Source of the DNA: Fructobacillus durionis | GTDB taxonomy: Bacteria > Bacillota > Bacilli > Lactobacillales > Lactobacillaceae | Assembly (NCBI RefSeq): GCF_900112405.1 | Contig: NZ_FOLI01000001.1 | Coordinates: 372,001 to 436,000 of the forward strand | Direction: 5' to 3' | Length of the DNA: 64,000 nucleotides | Part shown: positions 4,399-60,312 of the stretch, in pieces | Numbering within the stretch: position 1 is the first letter of the stretch | Layout of the letters: each line of letters opens with the position of its first letter | Notes under the pieces: model-generated | Told to the model about the DNA's origin: nothing | Seen by the model: the letters and a program-made list of their open reading frames with translations, nothing else | The model's database searches: none | Program-made: the position numbers and the translations under genes

Positions 4399-5271
4399 AT
4401 GAAGCAGAAAGAGTTTTTATTGGCCCTTCATTTAACGAAGGGAATTGGTCTTATTCGTAAGGAAAAAATAATTCGCGCCATTGAAGAGAATCGGGCGAAG
4501 ACAGAATATCCTTGGTCTTTTTCCGAGTTACTCCTTATTTTGGAGATGAATGGACAGAAGCGCTTTGCTGATCAGTTAGCAGTTGCTTATCAGGAGGGGC
4601 TTTTGCTGGCTCGTAATTATCCAGATGCTTACCTTTCGTACTTTGATGAAGAGTATCCAGTATTGTTGAGGGAGAGCTATCAGGCACCGTTGATTCTCTT
4701 TTATAAAGGTGACTTGCGGGCATTGCAGTTACCCGCTTTGGCAGTGGTGGGGACCCGAACGGCAACGGCTTATGGACAGGAAGTGCTGAGATACTTGCTG
4801 CCACCCTTGCTTGAAAGAGGGGGGGCGATTGTATCCGGTTTAGCGAAGGGAATCGATGTGATGGCGCATCAGGTGACTTTTGCGCATGGGGGTGTTCCGA
4901 TTGCGGTCATTGGATCAGGGATAGGACGGGCCTATCCGGTACAAAACAGACGCTTGCAGGAGCAGGTAGCGGAACAGGGGCTCTTATTATCCGAATACCC
5001 ACGAGATGTCGGCCCTAGTCGGGGCCATTTTCCTGAAAGAAATCGAATTATTGCGGGCTTAACTCGAGCAACCCTGGTTGTGGAGGCTAAGAAACGGTCG
5101 GGCTCTCTAATTACGGCTAATTTAGCCTTACAGAATAACCGGGAGGTCTTAGCAGTACCAGGATCAATTTTTTCTGAGGAATCCCGCGGTTGCCATGAAA
5201 TTATTCAGGCAGGTGCTCTTCCTGTTCGATCAGTTGAAGATATTCTAAAAAATGCAAATTTTACAAATTGA
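4399..5271 (+). CDS. dprA: DNA-processing protein DprA
   Basis: Binds incoming single-stranded DNA and loads RecA during natural transformation, in the cytoplasm. The Rossmann-fold core is clear: VVGTRTATAYGQ, GGAIVSGLAKGIDVMAHQ, VIGSGIGRAYPVQNRRL, FPERNRIIAGL and RSGSLITANLAL. I place the start at ATG 4399, because AAAGGGG lies just upstream and earlier codons in the frame fall inside the preceding terminator. The 290 residues end soon after the core, so the C-terminal winged-helix of longer DprA proteins is absent or very short. In many related genomes dprA sits beside topA; here about 3.6 kb holding codB, codA and a membrane protein separate them. Confidence 0.93.
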   Translation: MKQKEFLLALHLTKGIGLIRKEKIIRAIEENRAKTEYPWSFSELLLILEMNGQKRFADQLAVAYQEGLLLARNYPDAYLSYFDEEYPVLLRESYQAPLILFYKGDLRALQLPALAVVGTRTATAYGQEVLRYLLPPLLERGGAIVSGLAKGIDVMAHQVTFAHGGVPIAVIGSGIGRAYPVQNRRLQEQVAEQGLLLSEYPRDVGPSRGHFPERNRIIAGLTRATLVVEAKKRSGSLITANLALQNNREVLAVPGSIFSEESRGCHEIIQAGALPVRSVEDILKNANFTN

Positions 5272-5312
5272 TGACATTTCCTTTAAATTCCATACCGAAT
5301 CGGAAAGAACTG

Positions 5313-5321
5313 TGCTATGCT
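5313..5321 (+). promoter_or_regulatory. Extended -10 promoter of the codBA operon
   Basis: TG-C-TATGCT is an extended -10 element. Its expected start near 5328 falls just before the structured leader that begins at 5336. No good -35 box is visible. Confidence 0.55.
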
Positions 5322-5335
5322 TTATACAACTTTAA

Positions 5336-5440
5336 GTGGTTCAGAGAAATCAGAAGTTGCAAAATATTAAATTTTAATGCGGGGATTATCGCCCCTTTTT
5401 GCAGCACGCTCTGAATCACGGATGGTTCGGAGCGTTTTTT
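5336..5440 (+). ncRNA. Candidate riboswitch-like attenuator leader of codBA
   Basis: The leader can fold two exclusive ways. In one, 5336-5346 pairs with 5409-5419 (11 bp, one G-U) and encloses a second 9-bp helix (5356-5364 with 5397-5405) that carries two small hairpins, including GGGG 5381-5384 with CCCC 5392-5395. In the other, 5406-5417 pairs with 5424-5435 to make a terminator. The two helices share 5409-5417, so the first fold is an antiterminator. This is the layout of an ON-type riboswitch or protein-dependent antiterminator. I do not recognise it as a purine, preQ1, TPP, THF or PyrR element. The pairing is seen; the regulation is inferred. Confidence 0.6.
5406..5440 (+). terminator. 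Leader terminator upstream of codB
   Basis: A 12-bp stem (5406-5417 with 5424-5435, two G-U pairs) and a six-base loop runs into a run of six T at 5435-5440. It lies 25 bp before the codB start, so it must be read through for codB and codA to be expressed. Confidence 0.8.
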
Positions 5441-5464
5441 CTTTGAAAAAGAGGGGGAGTCAAA

Positions 5465-6829
5465 ATGGACAGTAAGCACTATCACGTTCGGCCAGTACCG
5501 GCCGAGGAACGAAATCTAGGTAAGTGGGACATGTTTGCCACTTGGTTTGGGGCCAATGCGAACAACGGCACCTGGTACATTGGTGGTATCATCGCTGCCT
5601 GTGGCATGATTGGCGGAATCTGGGCCTTGCTCATCGCCTCGATTTTGTCCTACATCTTCCTCAGTTTTATCTCCTTTATGGGCTATAAAACGGGACTATC
5701 AACTACTACACTGAGCCGTGCGACCTTCGGGATCCGCGGTAGTATCATCCCATCCATGATTAACTTCATCATGTTCATGGGCTGGACGGCGGTGAACACC
5801 TTCATCGCGGCGACTTCCCTTTCCTTTATCTTTCACAGTTTCTTTGGCTGGCCAGTCTACGGTCAGGCCGGTGGAAACAAGGGCTTGATTGTCGGTATCT
5901 TAATCATGTCCGTTCTGCACATTTTGAGTATTATTTCTGGTCAAAAGTCAGTCCGAATCATTGAGCGAATTGGAATTCTCTTGGTTATCTTCTTCGTTCT
6001 ATGGGAAGGCATTGTGGTCTTCCGCCACGTTTCCTTGCACGAATTAGTGAACTGGGTGGTGCCCGCTAAGGACCGTATGCAATTTGGGGCAGCAATTGAT
6101 ATTTTGGCTGCCTTTAACTTGGCTTGGGTTACTTCAGCCGCCGACTTTTCACGTTTTGCAAAGACTAAGACAGTGTCAACGGTGTCATCCTTCTGGGGAG
6201 CGCTTGTTGGGGTGGTTGCCTTTGCCGCCATGGGCTTGAGCACTGCAATCTCAATTGCCTTAACGACCGGCATTTACAAGCCAGATAATTCCGATCCATC
6301 AACGGTTGCCAATGAACTGGGACTGGGAACCATTGCCATGATTGTCATTGTCTTGACCAGTATGACGGCCAACGCGGTGAACTTGCAGGCAGCTGGTTCA
6401 GCTTTGAACAACATCTTCAGCAAGATTTCACTTCGCAACGCCTTGTTGATTTCAACAATTATCGCGACAATTTTTACCTTTATCCCGGTTATTAACGGAG
6501 ACTTCTTATCCGTCTTCACGGCCTTTCTGGACTACATCGGGATGTTCCTTGGCCCAATCATCGCCATTATGATTGTCGATTACTTCTTGCTAAACAAGGA
6601 AAACTACCAGCGTCAAAACTTTGAAAAGAACGGGGGACCTTTCTGGTTCCGCGGTGGTTACAACTTCATGGTGATTGCCCTCTGGGTTGTCGGTGTTTTG
6701 ATGTACCTTTACCTTTCAAACGTGGAATTTTTGAAGGATACCATCGGAGCGACTTTCCTAGTAATGGTTGTAATTGGCGCTGTCTACTACGCCTTGGTTA
6801 AGTTAATGAATCGTTCAGGTGACAAATAA
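5465..6829 (+). CDS. codB: Cytosine/purine permease, NCS1 family
   Basis: Membrane symporter of the nucleobase:cation symporter-1 family, expected to bring cytosine or a related base into the cell. The 454 residues are mostly hydrophobic with about twelve membrane segments. The N-terminal WDMFATWFGANANNGTWYIGG and the region around NLAWVTSAADFSRFAK match the family. A strong GGGGG ribosome site lies before ATG 5465. The stop overlaps the codA start by one base (TAATG), so the two are translationally coupled. The substrate is inferred from coupling to a cytosine-deaminase-like gene. The leader at 5336-5440 is the likely control point. Confidence 0.9.
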   Translation: MDSKHYHVRPVPAEERNLGKWDMFATWFGANANNGTWYIGGIIAACGMIGGIWALLIASILSYIFLSFISFMGYKTGLSTTTLSRATFGIRGSIIPSMINFIMFMGWTAVNTFIAATSLSFIFHSFFGWPVYGQAGGNKGLIVGILIMSVLHILSIISGQKSVRIIERIGILLVIFFVLWEGIVVFRHVSLHELVNWVVPAKDRMQFGAAIDILAAFNLAWVTSAADFSRFAKTKTVSTVSSFWGALVGVVAFAAMGLSTAISIALTTGIYKPDNSDPSTVANELGLGTIAMIVIVLTSMTANAVNLQAAGSALNNIFSKISLRNALLISTIIATIFTFIPVINGDFLSVFTAFLDYIGMFLGPIIAIMIVDYFLLNKENYQRQNFEKNGGPFWFRGGYNFMVIALWVVGVLMYLYLSNVEFLKDTIGATFLVMVVIGAVYYALVKLMNRSGDK

Positions 6830-8073
6830 TGTTAATTAAAAACGCACGGATTGAAAATGCTGCTGAAACAAGCGATATTCGTATTGAAAAAGGTGTGATT
6901 ACGGAACTGGCCCCTTTGATTGAAGGGGCTGCCGGGGAAGAGATTTTAGACTTACAAGGGAAGTTAGTCTTGCCACCCTTTGTCGACTCCCATATTCACT
7001 TGGACTCAACACTGACTGCTGGACAGCCAGAGTGGAATGAGACGGGAACGCTTTTTGACGGTATCCGAATCTGGGCAGAGCGTAAGAAGACTTTGACCGA
7101 GTCCGATGTGAAGGAACGGGCAATTCGAACGTTAAAAAAGCAGGCCTGCCACGGTGTGCAATACGTTCGTAGCCACGTTGATGTGACAGACCCAAACTTA
7201 ACCGCCTTGAAAGCCTTGCTAGAGGTGCGTGAAGAGGTCAAACCCTTCATGGATTTGCAACTAGTGGCCTTTCCACAGGACGGCATTCTATCCTTCCCAA
7301 ACGGGAAAGCGTTAATGGAGAAGGCTGTCCAGATGGGGGTGGATGCCGTGGGTGGTATTCCACACTATGAATTCAATCAGTACTATGGAAAGGACTCCTT
7401 GGAGTTTTTGGTGGATTTGGCGAAGCGCTATGACCGCTTGGTCGACGTTCACTGTGATGAAATTGATGATCCAAACTCACGTAATTTGGAAGTCCTTGCG
7501 ACTTTGGCTTACGAAAGCGGCTTGAAGAACAAGGTAACGGCCAGTCACACGGTTTCCTTTGCCTCAGTGCCCGATGCCTACGCCTACAAGCTGATGCGTG
7601 TTTTGAACATGTCTGGCATTAACATGGTGGCCAATCCACTGGTTAACATGCACCTTGGTGGCCGTTTTGATACCTATCCTAAGCGCCGTGGTTTAACCCG
7701 AGTGAAGGAACTACTGGAAAACGAGATTAACGTTTCCTTTGGTGAAGACGATGTGAAAGACCCTTGGTATCCAATGGGGGATGGCAACATGCTGGATTCA
7801 CTCTACGTTGGTATTTTGGCTTCTGGTTTGATGGGATACACTCAGATTCAAAATTCTTACAAGTTGATTGGTGAGAATGGCGCCAAGACTTTGCACCGAG
7901 AAGATGGGTACGGTATCAAAGTCGGTAATAAAGCCAACTTCTTAGTCTTTGATGCCGACAACTTCTACGATGTTTTGAATGAACGTCGTACCATGCTTTA
8001 TTCCTTCCATCAGGGTGAAGTGATTATCGAAAACCAACCGGTCAAGACGGTCAGCCGTTTGAAAATGAACTGA
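6829..8073 (+). CDS. codA: Cytosine deaminase-like amidohydrolase
   Basis: Cytoplasmic metal-dependent hydrolase expected to convert cytosine to uracil plus ammonia for pyrimidine salvage. The metal and catalytic residues of the CodA group are visible: His55 and His57 (DSHIHLD), His208 and Glu211 (VDVHCDE), His240 (TASHT) and Asp307 (FGEDDV). The residue before that Asp is Glu306, where E. coli CodA has His, so close relatives with other substrates (creatinine, isoguanine or other cyclic amidines) cannot be excluded. Length, 414 residues, is normal. It is the second gene of a two-gene operon and overlaps codB by one base. No terminator is visible right after it. Confidence 0.87.
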   Translation: MLIKNARIENAAETSDIRIEKGVITELAPLIEGAAGEEILDLQGKLVLPPFVDSHIHLDSTLTAGQPEWNETGTLFDGIRIWAERKKTLTESDVKERAIRTLKKQACHGVQYVRSHVDVTDPNLTALKALLEVREEVKPFMDLQLVAFPQDGILSFPNGKALMEKAVQMGVDAVGGIPHYEFNQYYGKDSLEFLVDLAKRYDRLVDVHCDEIDDPNSRNLEVLATLAYESGLKNKVTASHTVSFASVPDAYAYKLMRVLNMSGINMVANPLVNMHLGGRFDTYPKRRGLTRVKELLENEINVSFGEDDVKDPWYPMGDGNMLDSLYVGILASGLMGYTQIQNSYKLIGENGAKTLHREDGYGIKVGNKANFLVFDADNFYDVLNERRTMLYSFHQGEVIIENQPVKTVSRLKMN

Positions 8074-8151: not shown

Positions 8152-8772
8152 ATGTATCCAAAACGTTTTATTCAATTATTTCTTATCTTTTTTGTAACGG
8201 TCATTGTTGCCGAATTACTGTCTGATGGGGTGGGGATGAACAGTCTTTGGCCTCACATCTTCTTTGTGACGGTCATTGGCTATTTGGTCTTGGTAACGCC
8301 TTTAACGATTTTGACGGTGATGAAGAACCGCAAGAAGTTTGGTAAGGACGATGCCACTAGTAAGAACGAGGCATTGAACGAAGCCTACGCGGCATTACCA
8401 AACATGGTTGCGCTGGCAACAAAGGATGAAAGCTGCTTGGTTTCAAACACTTTGATTGCCTTTAAGCCATCAGCACGTGAAGAAAACGTTTTGTACTTAG
8501 TAACCGATAAGGATTCAACCAAAGCCGCTGACTTACGCTGCCATCCTGAATGTGCCTTTACCACTTGGTACGCTAAGTCTGGATTGCGTTTGCACTCCAA
8601 CCAGACAACCGCCGTTGTACTGGAAGATGAATTGGCTGAAAGTGAAATTGCAGAACATCCTGAAATTTTGAAACTTTCTGAGAATGCTGCTAAGCAAGCG
8701 GTCATTAAGTTGACTTTTTCTTCTATTGTAATTGAATCTTTCCAAAAGGCTGCCCAAGTGCTAACCTTTTAA
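8152..8772 (+). CDS. Membrane-anchored pyridoxamine-5'-phosphate-oxidase-like protein
   Basis: The first 60 residues contain two hydrophobic segments (about 5-25 and 33-57), followed by a soluble domain resembling the split-barrel flavin-binding PNPOx-like family. Signs of the latter are PNMVALATKDESCLVSNT, then LYLVTDKDSTKAADLRCHPECAFTTW. In this family the pattern reports a flavin- or heme-type ligand site, but true PdxH catalytic residues are not evident. I therefore do not propose vitamin B6 synthesis. It has its own promoter and a terminator. An inner-membrane redox or ligand-binding role is inference only. Confidence 0.7.
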   Translation: MYPKRFIQLFLIFFVTVIVAELLSDGVGMNSLWPHIFFVTVIGYLVLVTPLTILTVMKNRKKFGKDDATSKNEALNEAYAALPNMVALATKDESCLVSNTLIAFKPSAREENVLYLVTDKDSTKAADLRCHPECAFTTWYAKSGLRLHSNQTTAVVLEDELAESEIAEHPEILKLSENAAKQAVIKLTFSSIVIESFQKAAQVLTF

Positions 8773-8778
8773 TAGACA

Positions 8779-8806
8779 AACGAGACTGTAAAGTTCTCGT
8801 TTTTTA
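8779..8806 (+). terminator. Terminator after the PNPOx-like gene
   Basis: AACGAGA (8779-8785) pairs with TCTCGTT (8795-8801), followed by a T run. Confidence 0.75.
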
Positions 8807-8857
8807 TTTGATGTTTGAAGATGACTTTTTAAAAAATATCTGTTTTAATATTCTGTA

Positions 8858-8866
8858 TGCTATAAT
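8858..8866 (+). promoter_or_regulatory. Extended -10 promoter of topA
   Basis: TG-C-TATAAT, with a perfect -10 hexamer at 8861-8866, lies 32 bp before the GTG start of topA. No strong -35 box is visible. Confidence 0.65.
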
Positions 8867-8898
8867 GCAGATAATTTGAAGAACTGTGAGGATCTGTC

Positions 8899-10992
8899 GT
8901 GGCAGAGAAGAAAACGAGCAAAACGACAACTCGTAAGAAAACAACTAGCAAGAAGACGACCCGGTCTTCTAAAAATAAAAAACTGGTGATTGTCGAGTCT
9001 CCTTCGAAGGCAAAGACAATTGAAAAGTACCTTGGTTCTACTTACCAAGTTGTGGCATCAATCGGTCACGTTCGTGACTTGCCTAAGTCAACCTTGGGTG
9101 TTGATGTCGAGGACAACTACCAGCCAAAGTACATTAACATTCGTGGAAAAGGTCCCGTCATTAAGGACCTGAAGAAGGCGGCTAAGAACGCCAAGCAAGT
9201 TTATCTCGCATCCGACCCGGATCGCGAAGGGGAAGCCATTGCCTGGCACTTGCAATATATTTTAGGGTTGGACCCCGAAAAATCCAACCGTGTTGTTTTT
9301 AACGAAATTACCAAAGATACTGTTAAGAACGCTTTTAAGGAGCCACGGACCATCAACCAGGATTTGGTCGATGCCCAGCAGGCCCGTCGAATCATTGACC
9401 GACTCGTGGGTTACTCGATTTCACCCGTCTTGTGGAAGACAGTGAAGCGTGGTTTGTCAGCCGGACGTGTTCAGTCCGTTGCTCTTGGTTTGATTATCGC
9501 CCGTGAAAAGGAAATCCAAGCCTTCCAACCAGAAGAATACTGGACCTTGGATTCTGAATTTAAGAAGGGCCGCTCAAAGTTTAAGGCGAACTTCTACGGA
9601 TTTGATGGTAAGAAACAGCCACTGCCTGATAACGCAGCCGTCCAGAGTGTGATGGGGCAGTTGGACACGAAGAAGCCATTTACGGTTTCTTCCGTTAAGG
9701 CGAAGGAACGTAAGCGTTCCCCACAGCCACCATTTACCACGTCAACTATGCAACAGGCAGCCAACACGCAGTTGAAGTTCCGTACTCGAAAGACGATGAT
9801 GACGGCTCAGCAATTGTATGAAGGGATTAACTTGGGCCGTGGACTCGGACAAGTTGGGTTGATTACCTATATGCGTACCGATTCAACCCGTTTGTCAGCG
9901 GTTGCTAAGAATGCAGCTGCTCAATACATTCACAACGAATGGGGTGAAGAGTACTCAAGCCATAAGCCAGTGGCTGGTGTCCCTCAGGAAGGGGCACAGG
10001 ATGCCCACGAAGCCATTCGTCCAACGGATGTTTTCAAGACACCCGCTTCTATCAAGGATAAGTTGACGCCTGACCAGTTCAAGCTCTACTCCTTGATTTG
10101 GTCCCGTTTCGTCGCATCCTTGATGACACCAGAAATCTTGGATACGATGGCCGTGACGGTTGAACAAAACGGTGTGCTCTTCCACGCCAATGGTTCTAAG
10201 ACAAAGTTCCCTGGATTTACGAAGGCCTATCCTTCAGCCAAGGAAAAGGACAACCTTCTACCTGATTTGGCGGAGGGGGATGCCGTTGATTTGGCAAAGA
10301 CCAATCCGGAACAGCACTTCACAATGCCACCAGCCCGTTATTCTGAAGCGGCTTTGATTAAGGCCTTGGAAGAAAACGGTGTTGGACGTCCTTCAACTTA
10401 TGCACCGACCTTGGATACGATCCAGCGTCGTAACTACGTCCGTGTGGATGCCCGTAAGTTTGTGCCAACTGAATTAGGTGAAGTTGTTCAAAACATCGTG
10501 GACGACAAGTTCCCGGATATCACCAATACGAAGTTTACTGCCAAAGTCGAGCACTCACTGGATGAAATCGAAGTCGGTGAGAAGAAGTGGGTGCCAGTTG
10601 TGGACGAGTTCTACAAGCCATTTGCTAAGGAAGTCGAATCCGCTGAAAAGACTTTGGAAAAGATTACCATGCACGATGAATTGGCGGGGATGGACTGTGA
10701 GGTCTGTGGCGCACCAATGGTTGTGAAGATGGGACGCTACGGTAAGTTCTACGCCTGTTCTCGTTTCCCAGATTGCCGTAACACCAAGGCAATTGTGCAA
10801 GAAATCGGGATTGAATGTCCAAAGTGTCATAAGGGGCAGGTCGTTGAGCGTAAGACCAAGCGTGGTCGAAAGTTCTACGGTTGTTCCCGTTACCCTGACT
10901 GTGATTTCGTTTCATGGGATAAGCCAAAGGCGCCCGGTGAAGAACAGTCGGATGATAAAAAAGATACGAAGAAGAAAACTGGCGCTAAGTAA
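8899..10992 (+). CDS. topA: DNA topoisomerase I (type IA)
   Basis: Relaxes negative supercoils by single-strand passage. The toprim domain opens with [18 protein letters not shown] and has [13 protein letters not shown]. The DNA-linking tyrosine is Tyr324 in [12 protein letters not shown]. Two C-terminal Cys4 zinc ribbons ([10 protein letters not shown]...CSRFPDC and [10 protein letters not shown]...CSRYPDC) follow, and 697 residues is usual for Firmicutes. The first 28 residues are an unusual Lys/Thr/Ser-rich tail that probably contacts nucleic acid. The start is GTG 8899, with GAGGAT just upstream. It is monocistronic, between an extended -10 promoter and a terminator. Confidence 0.97.
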
Positions 10993-51321: not shown

Positions 51322-51327
51322 TTAGAC

Positions 51328-51579
51328 ATCGAAGAGGTTGCGACCACGATGAGTAAATTAGTCGAGTTCCTGTGTGAACCATGACGCTAATCGAAAGGCA
51401 CGGTCGCCGAAGCGCTTTAGTAGCACAGACTAAAGTAAGCTGGGACATCGTTTAATAAGCGATGGACTGTCACGATTCACATCGTGGTGCGCTTTCGACA
51501 ATTGAAACCAGTAATTTTTTTATGAACCATTGGATTCTCTTGTATGAAGTGTAAACCACTTCGTACAGGAGTTTTTTTT
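51328..51579 (+). promoter_or_regulatory. Lysine riboswitch (L-box) with terminator
   Basis: The aptamer spans about 51329-51498. The conserved L-box blocks are present in order: GAGGTTGCGAC at 51334-51344, AGTA, AAAGGCACGGTCGCCGAAGC at 51396-51415, GCTGGGAC, GGACTGTCACG, and GTGGTGCGCTT. The closing helix pairs TCGAAG (51329-51334) with CTTTCGA (51492-51498). The expression platform ends in a 15-bp terminator, 51537-51551 with 51557-51571, followed by eight T. With lysine bound, the operon should be shut off. Recognition rests on consensus blocks known from B. subtilis lysC and Lactobacillales lys genes. Confidence 0.93.
51537..51579 (+). terminator. Riboswitch terminator before lysA
   Basis: A 15-bp stem with two G-U pairs and a TAAAC loop, then TTTTTTTT. 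It is the OFF state of the lysine riboswitch. Confidence 0.85.
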
Positions 51580-60063: not shown

Positions 60064-60098
60064 CATTGAGCATATCTACAATATCTCAATGTCAAACA

Positions 60099-60107
60099 TG
60101 CTATAAT
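60099..60107 (+). promoter_or_regulatory. Toxin promoter (extended -10)
   Basis: TG-C-TATAAT with a perfect hexamer at 60102-60107; expected start near 60114, giving a 5' leader of about 94 bases before the toxin ATG. Confidence 0.6.
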
Positions 60108-60132
60108 CACTTTGCAAACAAGTGAAGATGGT

Positions 60133-60205
60133 GGCTATCCTGGAAAGGTGGTGGTGCCGATGATTTCAAAATCATGACCCCAAACATCCTAGGAAAGGAG
60201 AAGCC
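60133..60205 (+). promoter_or_regulatory. Leader structure hiding the toxin ribosome site
   Basis: GGCT-A-TCCT (60133-60141) can pair with AGGA-GA-AGCC (60196-60205), eight base pairs that cover the ribosome-binding AGGAG three to ten bases before the ATG. An inner hairpin ATGATT/AATCAT (60160-60175) closes the domain. This fits a translationally inactive full-length toxin mRNA, known from type I systems; whether the RNA is processed is unknown. Confidence 0.5.
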
Positions 60206-60207
60206 TG

Positions 60208-60312
60208 ATGTCTGTAATGGACGTCTTAACGCTGCTGATAGCGTTTGGAATACTTATTCTGACGTTTATTGGCATCGTCATTGACCTAATCAAATTAAGT
60301 CAAAAAAAATAA
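60208..60312 (+). CDS. Type I toxin-like small hydrophobic peptide
   Basis: A 34-residue peptide: a short N-terminus (MSVMDVLTLLIAFG), one membrane helix over about residues 6-27 (ILILTFIGIVIDLI), and a polar basic tail (KLSQKK). This is the form of the 'putative holin-like toxin' peptides of lactic acid bacteria, which insert into the membrane and stop growth when overproduced. AGGAAAGGAG ends eight bases before the ATG. A convergent promoter and a terminator inside the last codons predict an antisense RNA. Toxicity is inference from family form and locus layout. Confidence 0.72.
   Translation: MSVMDVLTLLIAFGILILTFIGIVIDLIKLSQKK

Follow-up and report, generated by a model that had tools for sequence, protein, structure and literature searches.

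A probable diverged PyrR-dependent attenuator in front of the cytosine permease and deaminase genes of Fructobacillus durionis

The PyrR hexaloop has the general form CNGNGA. In the closest described systems, the pyr attenuators of Bacillus subtilis (Rfam family RF00515), this hexaloop and an asymmetric internal loop are combined with three mutually exclusive folds, a PyrR protein encoded in the genome and pyrimidine genes downstream. According to PMC7430163, the PyrR loops of B. subtilis follow the consensus ARUCCAGAGAGGYU and the top of the upper stem matters for PyrR; PMC6296669 describes UMP and PRPP as acting through the pyrR RNA elements of pneumococcus. The leader of the cytosine permease and deaminase genes (codBA) of Fructobacillus durionis shares the hexaloop, the internal loop, the three folds, the PyrR gene in the genome and the pyrimidine genes downstream with the B. 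subtilis attenuators, but its upper stem reads GGUU/AAUC instead of ARUC/GGYU, its target is cytosine salvage and not de novo synthesis, it scores 31.2 bits against an RF00515 cut-off (gathering score) of 54, and the pyrR gene of the host lacks a leader of its own. The leader belongs to RF00515 by architecture and does not belong by score, and we consider it very probably a diverged PyrR-dependent transcription attenuator controlling codBA. No PyrR site before codB was found in the open-licence literature consulted, including parts of PMC3766115, PMC12802215, PMC4448216, PMC2965389, PMC10886434 and PMC10672894, an absence that is weak evidence.

The window, that is, the whole stretch of 64,000 nucleotides that was analysed, contains the leader as the gap between dprA (Pfam PF02481), which ends at 5271, and codB, which starts at 5465; all features of the leader and operon given below lie on the forward strand. 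The codB gene (5465-6829) encodes a codB-type NCS1 nucleobase permease (Pfam PF02133, 187.6 bits; every NCBIfam match is below its cut-off), and its closest relative found is that of Fructobacillus sp. CRL 2054, with 95% identity. It is followed by codA for cytosine deaminase (6829-8073; NF006685, 578.6 bits, cut-off 483), and because the two genes overlap by 1 base they probably form one operon. The host genome encodes PyrR at G000:C7:304637-305158 (225.3 bits, cut-off 138), and the protein matches solved PyrR proteins with E values of 2.5e-52 or better for nine of the 11 sequences listed. The pyrR gene sits 34 nt after an ORF that is by eye a pseudouridine synthase, a gap too short for a separate leader, and carA and carB (by eye) lie downstream. 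Two ORF pairs in the host genome are carAB by eye (L106 3198-6774 and L242 3058-7366): the pair behind pyrR has a short CarB of 838 aa and the pair in the pyrB operon a full-length CarB of 1,060 aa.

An extended -10 promoter element, TG-C-TATGCT (TGCTATGCT), can be read from the letters at 5313-5321, and transcription is expected to start at about 5328. This element had been proposed in the initial annotation; it is visible and kept as TG-N-TAT in four of four aligned Fructobacillus leaders, but it is absent from the list of a generic promoter scan. Just downstream, positions 5327-5359 form a PyrR-type loop, a hairpin characteristic of PyrR-binding anti-antiterminators and here the predicted one, which is supported by a motif scan, nascent-RNA minimum free energy (MFE) folding, conservation and covariation. 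Its lower stem (5327-5332/5354-5359, CAACUU/AAGUUG), recovered independently by an inverted-repeat search, is followed by an internal loop and by an upper stem at 5337-5341/5348-5352 (UGGUU/AAUCA) that is closed by the hexaloop CAGAGA at 5342-5347. The hexaloop fits CNGNGA and is identical in its letters to the loop of the B. subtilis consensus as given in PMC7430163. CUUUAA at 5330-5335 fits the 5' CUUU(U)AA and asymmetric internal loop that are expected of PyrR attenuators from alignments, including the Rfam alignment. The consensus letters of the upper stem, ARUCC..GGYU, are not matched: GGUUCAGAGAAAUC fits in the loop, whereas the stem is off at five of eight positions and still pairs, and its top is U-A/U-A instead of the U-G/C-G of the consensus.

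The hairpin competes with both helices of an antiterminator. The outer helix (5336-5346/5409-5419), identified by inverted-repeat scan, folding and shuffle test, has arms of 11 nt that form 10 Watson-Crick pairs and one G-U pair, and its 5' arm overlaps the upper stem and hexaloop of the PyrR-type loop. The inner helix found by folding (5356-5364/5397-5405) encloses hairpins at 5365-5379 and 5381-5395 and shares bases with the 3' side of the loop's lower stem. An intrinsic terminator (stem-loop 5406-5435, with its U-tract extending to 5441) is called by terminator and repeat scans and by folding; the mechanical scan gives 13 pairs between 5406-5418 and 5423-5435, with a T-run behind. The 11-bp antiterminator and 12-bp terminator helices of the initial annotation, their competition for nine bases (5409-5417), and the 9-bp helix with two hairpins inside the first fold were thus all recovered, the two competing helices mechanically and the enclosed elements by folding. 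Its interval of 5336-5440 starts too late, given that the hairpin that begins nine bases upstream was missed. Scans, folding and shuffles agree on a mutually exclusive antiterminator that overlaps both the loop and the terminator. The fold of the 131-nt segment 5320-5450 is 4.47 s.d. better than dinucleotide shuffles (z -4.47), with none of 200 as good. The antiterminator duplex, in which the loop region pairs with the terminator arm, is better than any obtained after the letters of the loop region were shuffled 200 times.

The computed order of folds is the one that would be expected of PyrR attenuation. For nascent RNA ending at 5365 or 5375 the MFE structure is the PyrR-type hairpin alone (-7.1 kcal/mol), at 5419 it is the antiterminator (-27.6 versus -14.3 kcal/mol with the hairpin forced), and at full length the best fold contains the terminator (-36.0). 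With the antiterminator forced, the full-length RNA reaches -31.3, and with the PyrR hairpin and terminator forced -33.0, so the hairpin lies outside the best free full-length fold. In the proposed scheme, the emerging RNA folds the hairpin 5327-5359 first; the further steps, namely PyrR binding, UMP as the signal and which way control runs, are predicted from the known PyrR mechanism. At high levels of UMP or UTP, PyrR, whose gene lies elsewhere in the genome, would bind and hold this hairpin, which would block the antiterminator, allow the terminator 5406-5435 to form and switch codBA off, so that the attenuator is predicted to shut the operon at high UMP. When pyrimidine nucleotides are scarce, PyrR would be unbound, the antiterminator (5336-5346/5409-5419 with 5356-5364/5397-5405) would displace the hairpin, RNA polymerase would read through, and cytosine would be imported and deaminated to uracil. 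An attenuator of the cytosine permease/deaminase operon, suggested earlier with a nucleotide among its possible ligands, is upheld, and its signal is probably a nucleotide.

A search of the window with Rfam gathering thresholds yields just two matches, a lysine riboswitch and rli28, neither of them at the leader. Relaxing the thresholds over 5250-5480 (231 nt), with E values up to 10 allowed, gives nine Rfam matches in the leader, of which RF00515 is the best; it aligns end to end (model 1-115) over 5325-5442 with an E value of 0.0085, 23 bits short of the gathering score. The PyrR-type loop and this match replace the earlier labels of an unassigned, riboswitch-like leader without resemblance to PyrR elements. 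The genome-wide RF00515 search of the host lists 10 weak matches that include neither the codB nor the pyrB site, so the score alone proves little; the case rests on comparisons within the genus, within the genome and with other genera. Across 13 Fructobacillus genomes RF00515 gives many weak matches and none at the cut-off; where weak rows were checked by position, they span the pyrB loop in G100 and G202 and fall between the loop and pyrB in G201. When the leader was compared by BLAST with 201 family genomes, the matches were its own genome, the F. fructosus codB leader (85% over 47 nt) and otherwise short stretches of 17-40 nt; a search against plasmids gave no match.

Within Fructobacillus, pyrR is present in 13 of 13 genomes, pyrB in 11 and codB in six. 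All 11 pyrB genes are preceded by a PyrR loop, 195-233 nt upstream of the matched start, with a terminator behind it in every case, and the loop is closed by C-G around CGGAGA in five genomes and by U-A around CAGAGA in six, including the host. The idea that residue 25 of PyrR (His or Arg) goes with the pair closing the loop was considered and dropped, as it is broken by G001. In the host, the pyrB attenuator (G000:C7:58477-58522) resembles the codB leader in its CUUUAA...CAGAGA...AAG core, its U-A closed hexaloop and its terminator arm GCUCUGAUCA, which is complementary to the loop; it differs in its upper stem (UGAU/AUCA) and in the distance between loop and terminator (~130 nt, against ~45 nt at codB). 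The pattern CTTTAA-CAGAGA-AAG, built from elements common to the pyrB and codB sites and chosen after both had been seen, has exactly two matches in the 1.33-Mb host genome, before pyrB and before codB. In the 13 genomes of the genus, 11 of its 12 matches lie before pyrB or codB, counting a pyrB remnant in G041, and the twelfth is in G202; the backwards control has two matches. The terminator arm is complementary to the loop, with at most one of 200 loop shuffles as good, in 12 of 15 Fructobacillus leaders (4/4 codB and 8/11 pyrB), and the remaining three pyrB leaders are not clearly above shuffles. The G041 remnant belongs to F. papyriferae (L241, G041:C1:678500-690500), in which a reverse-strand ORF (8725-9138), by eye the start of PyrB joined to the end of PyrD, follows an intact PyrR loop (65 bits with model R1, described below) and precedes ORFs that are by eye pyrF and pyrE, a reduced pyr operon.

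A PyrR-type loop lies upstream of codB in four of the six genomes, namely the host, CRL 2054, F. papyrifericola and F. fructosus. Covariance models restricted to the loop, R1 from the 11 Fructobacillus pyrB loops and R2 from 35 PyrR loops excluding the four Fructobacillus codB ones, respond to these sites poorly. R1 finds the pyrB sites genome-wide in 12 genomes, including the G041 remnant and the host site, and no codB site; when searched against codB loci it finds only that of G204 (11.0 bits, E 0.97). R2 scores the leader at 8.8 bits (E 0.06 in 193 nt), finds only G204 among the codB loci (E 2.9) and nothing at codB genome-wide. Because both models miss codB genome-wide and the letters of the upper stem differ while it still pairs, we regard the site as a diverged member. 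The same divergence and missed searches would also be expected if the leader were a decayed site, descended from a PyrR attenuator, that had lost PyrR binding and kept a constitutive partial terminator, and the codB leaders of F. parabroussonetiae and F. papyriferae do lack a CNGNGA loop. However, 29 of the 33 loop positions are invariant across the four species, with hexaloop and stems intact while the downstream stretch drifts, and the two loop-less relatives are also without matches to codA and pyrB, so that we consider decay unlikely. The joint absence of loop, codA and pyrB within the genus is a suggestion only, six genomes being too few for more.

The initial annotation had taken the enclosed 60-base domain for an aptamer, which would make the leader a metabolite riboswitch for cytosine or another nucleobase. 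A switch between antiterminator and terminator on a transport operon, with a stable enclosed fold, is compatible with this idea, but the domain is mostly poorly conserved: only 13 of 47 positions are invariant at 5360-5406, a comparison of four sequences only, and no conserved ligand core is seen. Moreover, the conserved part resembles a protein-binding loop that the host genome carries upstream of pyrB as well, and no riboswitch family is among the nine Rfam matches in the leader, which makes a riboswitch very improbable. Least plausible of all is antitermination at this leader by an RNA-binding protein of the BglG/LicT type: the weak match to RF03530 (bglG-cis-reg) scores 15.6 bits (gathering score 80), with an E value of 2.1 in the search of 231 nt, and the operon is not for a sugar.

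The reading as a diverged PyrR-dependent attenuator can be compared with codB leaders across the Lactobacillaceae, in which CodB matches at E ≤ 1e-60 occur in 153 of 301 genomes and 109 codB upstream loci were examined. PyrR-like loops scoring at least 7 are present on the sense strand in 31 of the 109 regions versus two on the opposite strand. RF00515 matches 23 of 26 non-Fructobacillus codB leaders that had been preselected by the loop motif (42.2-58.8 bits; all but L126, L148 and L167). By batch, 18 of 20 and then six of 11 sources gave matches, and these 24 comprise the 23 non-Fructobacillus leaders and that of F. papyrifericola (35.8 bits); at E values up to 1 there was no match in two loop-bearing genomes, CRL 2054 and F. 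fructosus, nor in the loop-less F. parabroussonetiae and F. papyriferae. The initial annotation had named a match to a described Rfam family as grounds for abandoning its reading. Such a match is weak at the leader itself; in related genera, 11 leaders reach or exceed the gathering score. These elements lie at the orthologous position before the NCS1 permease, but most of them carry an AGUC/GGCU-like upper stem, unlike the leader described here.

Later comparisons used 24 leaders, the 23 matched by RF00515 and L167. L190, a partial duplicate of L189, was left out of the analysis, and the motif matches L126, L148 and L151 were not used. When 28 codB-leader loops (26 distinct) are aligned without gaps, 98.5% of the upper-stem cells are paired, a value reached by none of 500 shuffles, compared with 14-48% in slid registers. 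The 26 distinct loops contain 26 double-change cells in the upper stem versus 7.7 in shuffles (0/500 reach this), and two of five covariation measures, the number of pairs with a double change and further pair types, are not above shuffles. The antiterminator is less evident outside Fructobacillus: among the 23 codB leaders with a terminator called (none is called in L168), 21 are not clearly above shuffles and two have at most 1% of shuffles as good. In these genomes codA is downstream of codB, divergent, elsewhere or without a match (6/24 genomes checked). It lies divergently beside the codB leader in seven of them (L165, L169, L172, L173, L174, L184 and L185), an arrangement in which a PyrR attenuator would control codB but not codA.

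An attenuator of this kind is ordinary; of mild interest are the operon it would control and the fact that the family model overlooks it. If the assignment holds, PyrR governs not only de novo synthesis but also the uptake and deamination of cytosine in a fructophilic lactic acid bacterium, and the list of orphan riboswitches is one candidate shorter. Given that none of 13 genomes has RF00515 at its cut-off even though 11 have pyrB loops, PyrR regulons are probably under-annotated in Fructobacillus. More tentatively, and at somewhat below even chance, PyrR and its RNA loops in the host's species group may jointly have drifted towards an altered recognition code: both top upper-stem pairs are replaced in the same genomes (U-A/U-A at codB and A-U/U-A at pyrB), and a working PyrR regulon that includes cytosine salvage may thus be scored below the cut-off by the standard family model.

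Two other types of conserved codB leader were observed. One, around AATGTGT(A/C/T)AAA, occurs in 12 of the 109 regions (L084-L092, L094, L096 and L097), at a distance of 45-60 nt from the region's 3' end, and in none of the 28 with a PyrR loop. The other is near letter-for-letter identical in seven of the 109 regions (L093, L095 and L098-L102), around ACAAAATGTTAATATTTTGGAGGAAAC. Elsewhere in the window, the lysine riboswitch (RF00168) lies at 51324-51503 on the forward strand with 106 bits, well above its cut-off. The match to rli28 (RF01492), a Listeria sRNA family and as such unexpected in Fructobacillus, lies at 60092-60280 on the same strand (66.2 bits, cut-off 45), between two ORFs of which the upstream one is by eye a phosphonate-binding-like solute-binding protein.
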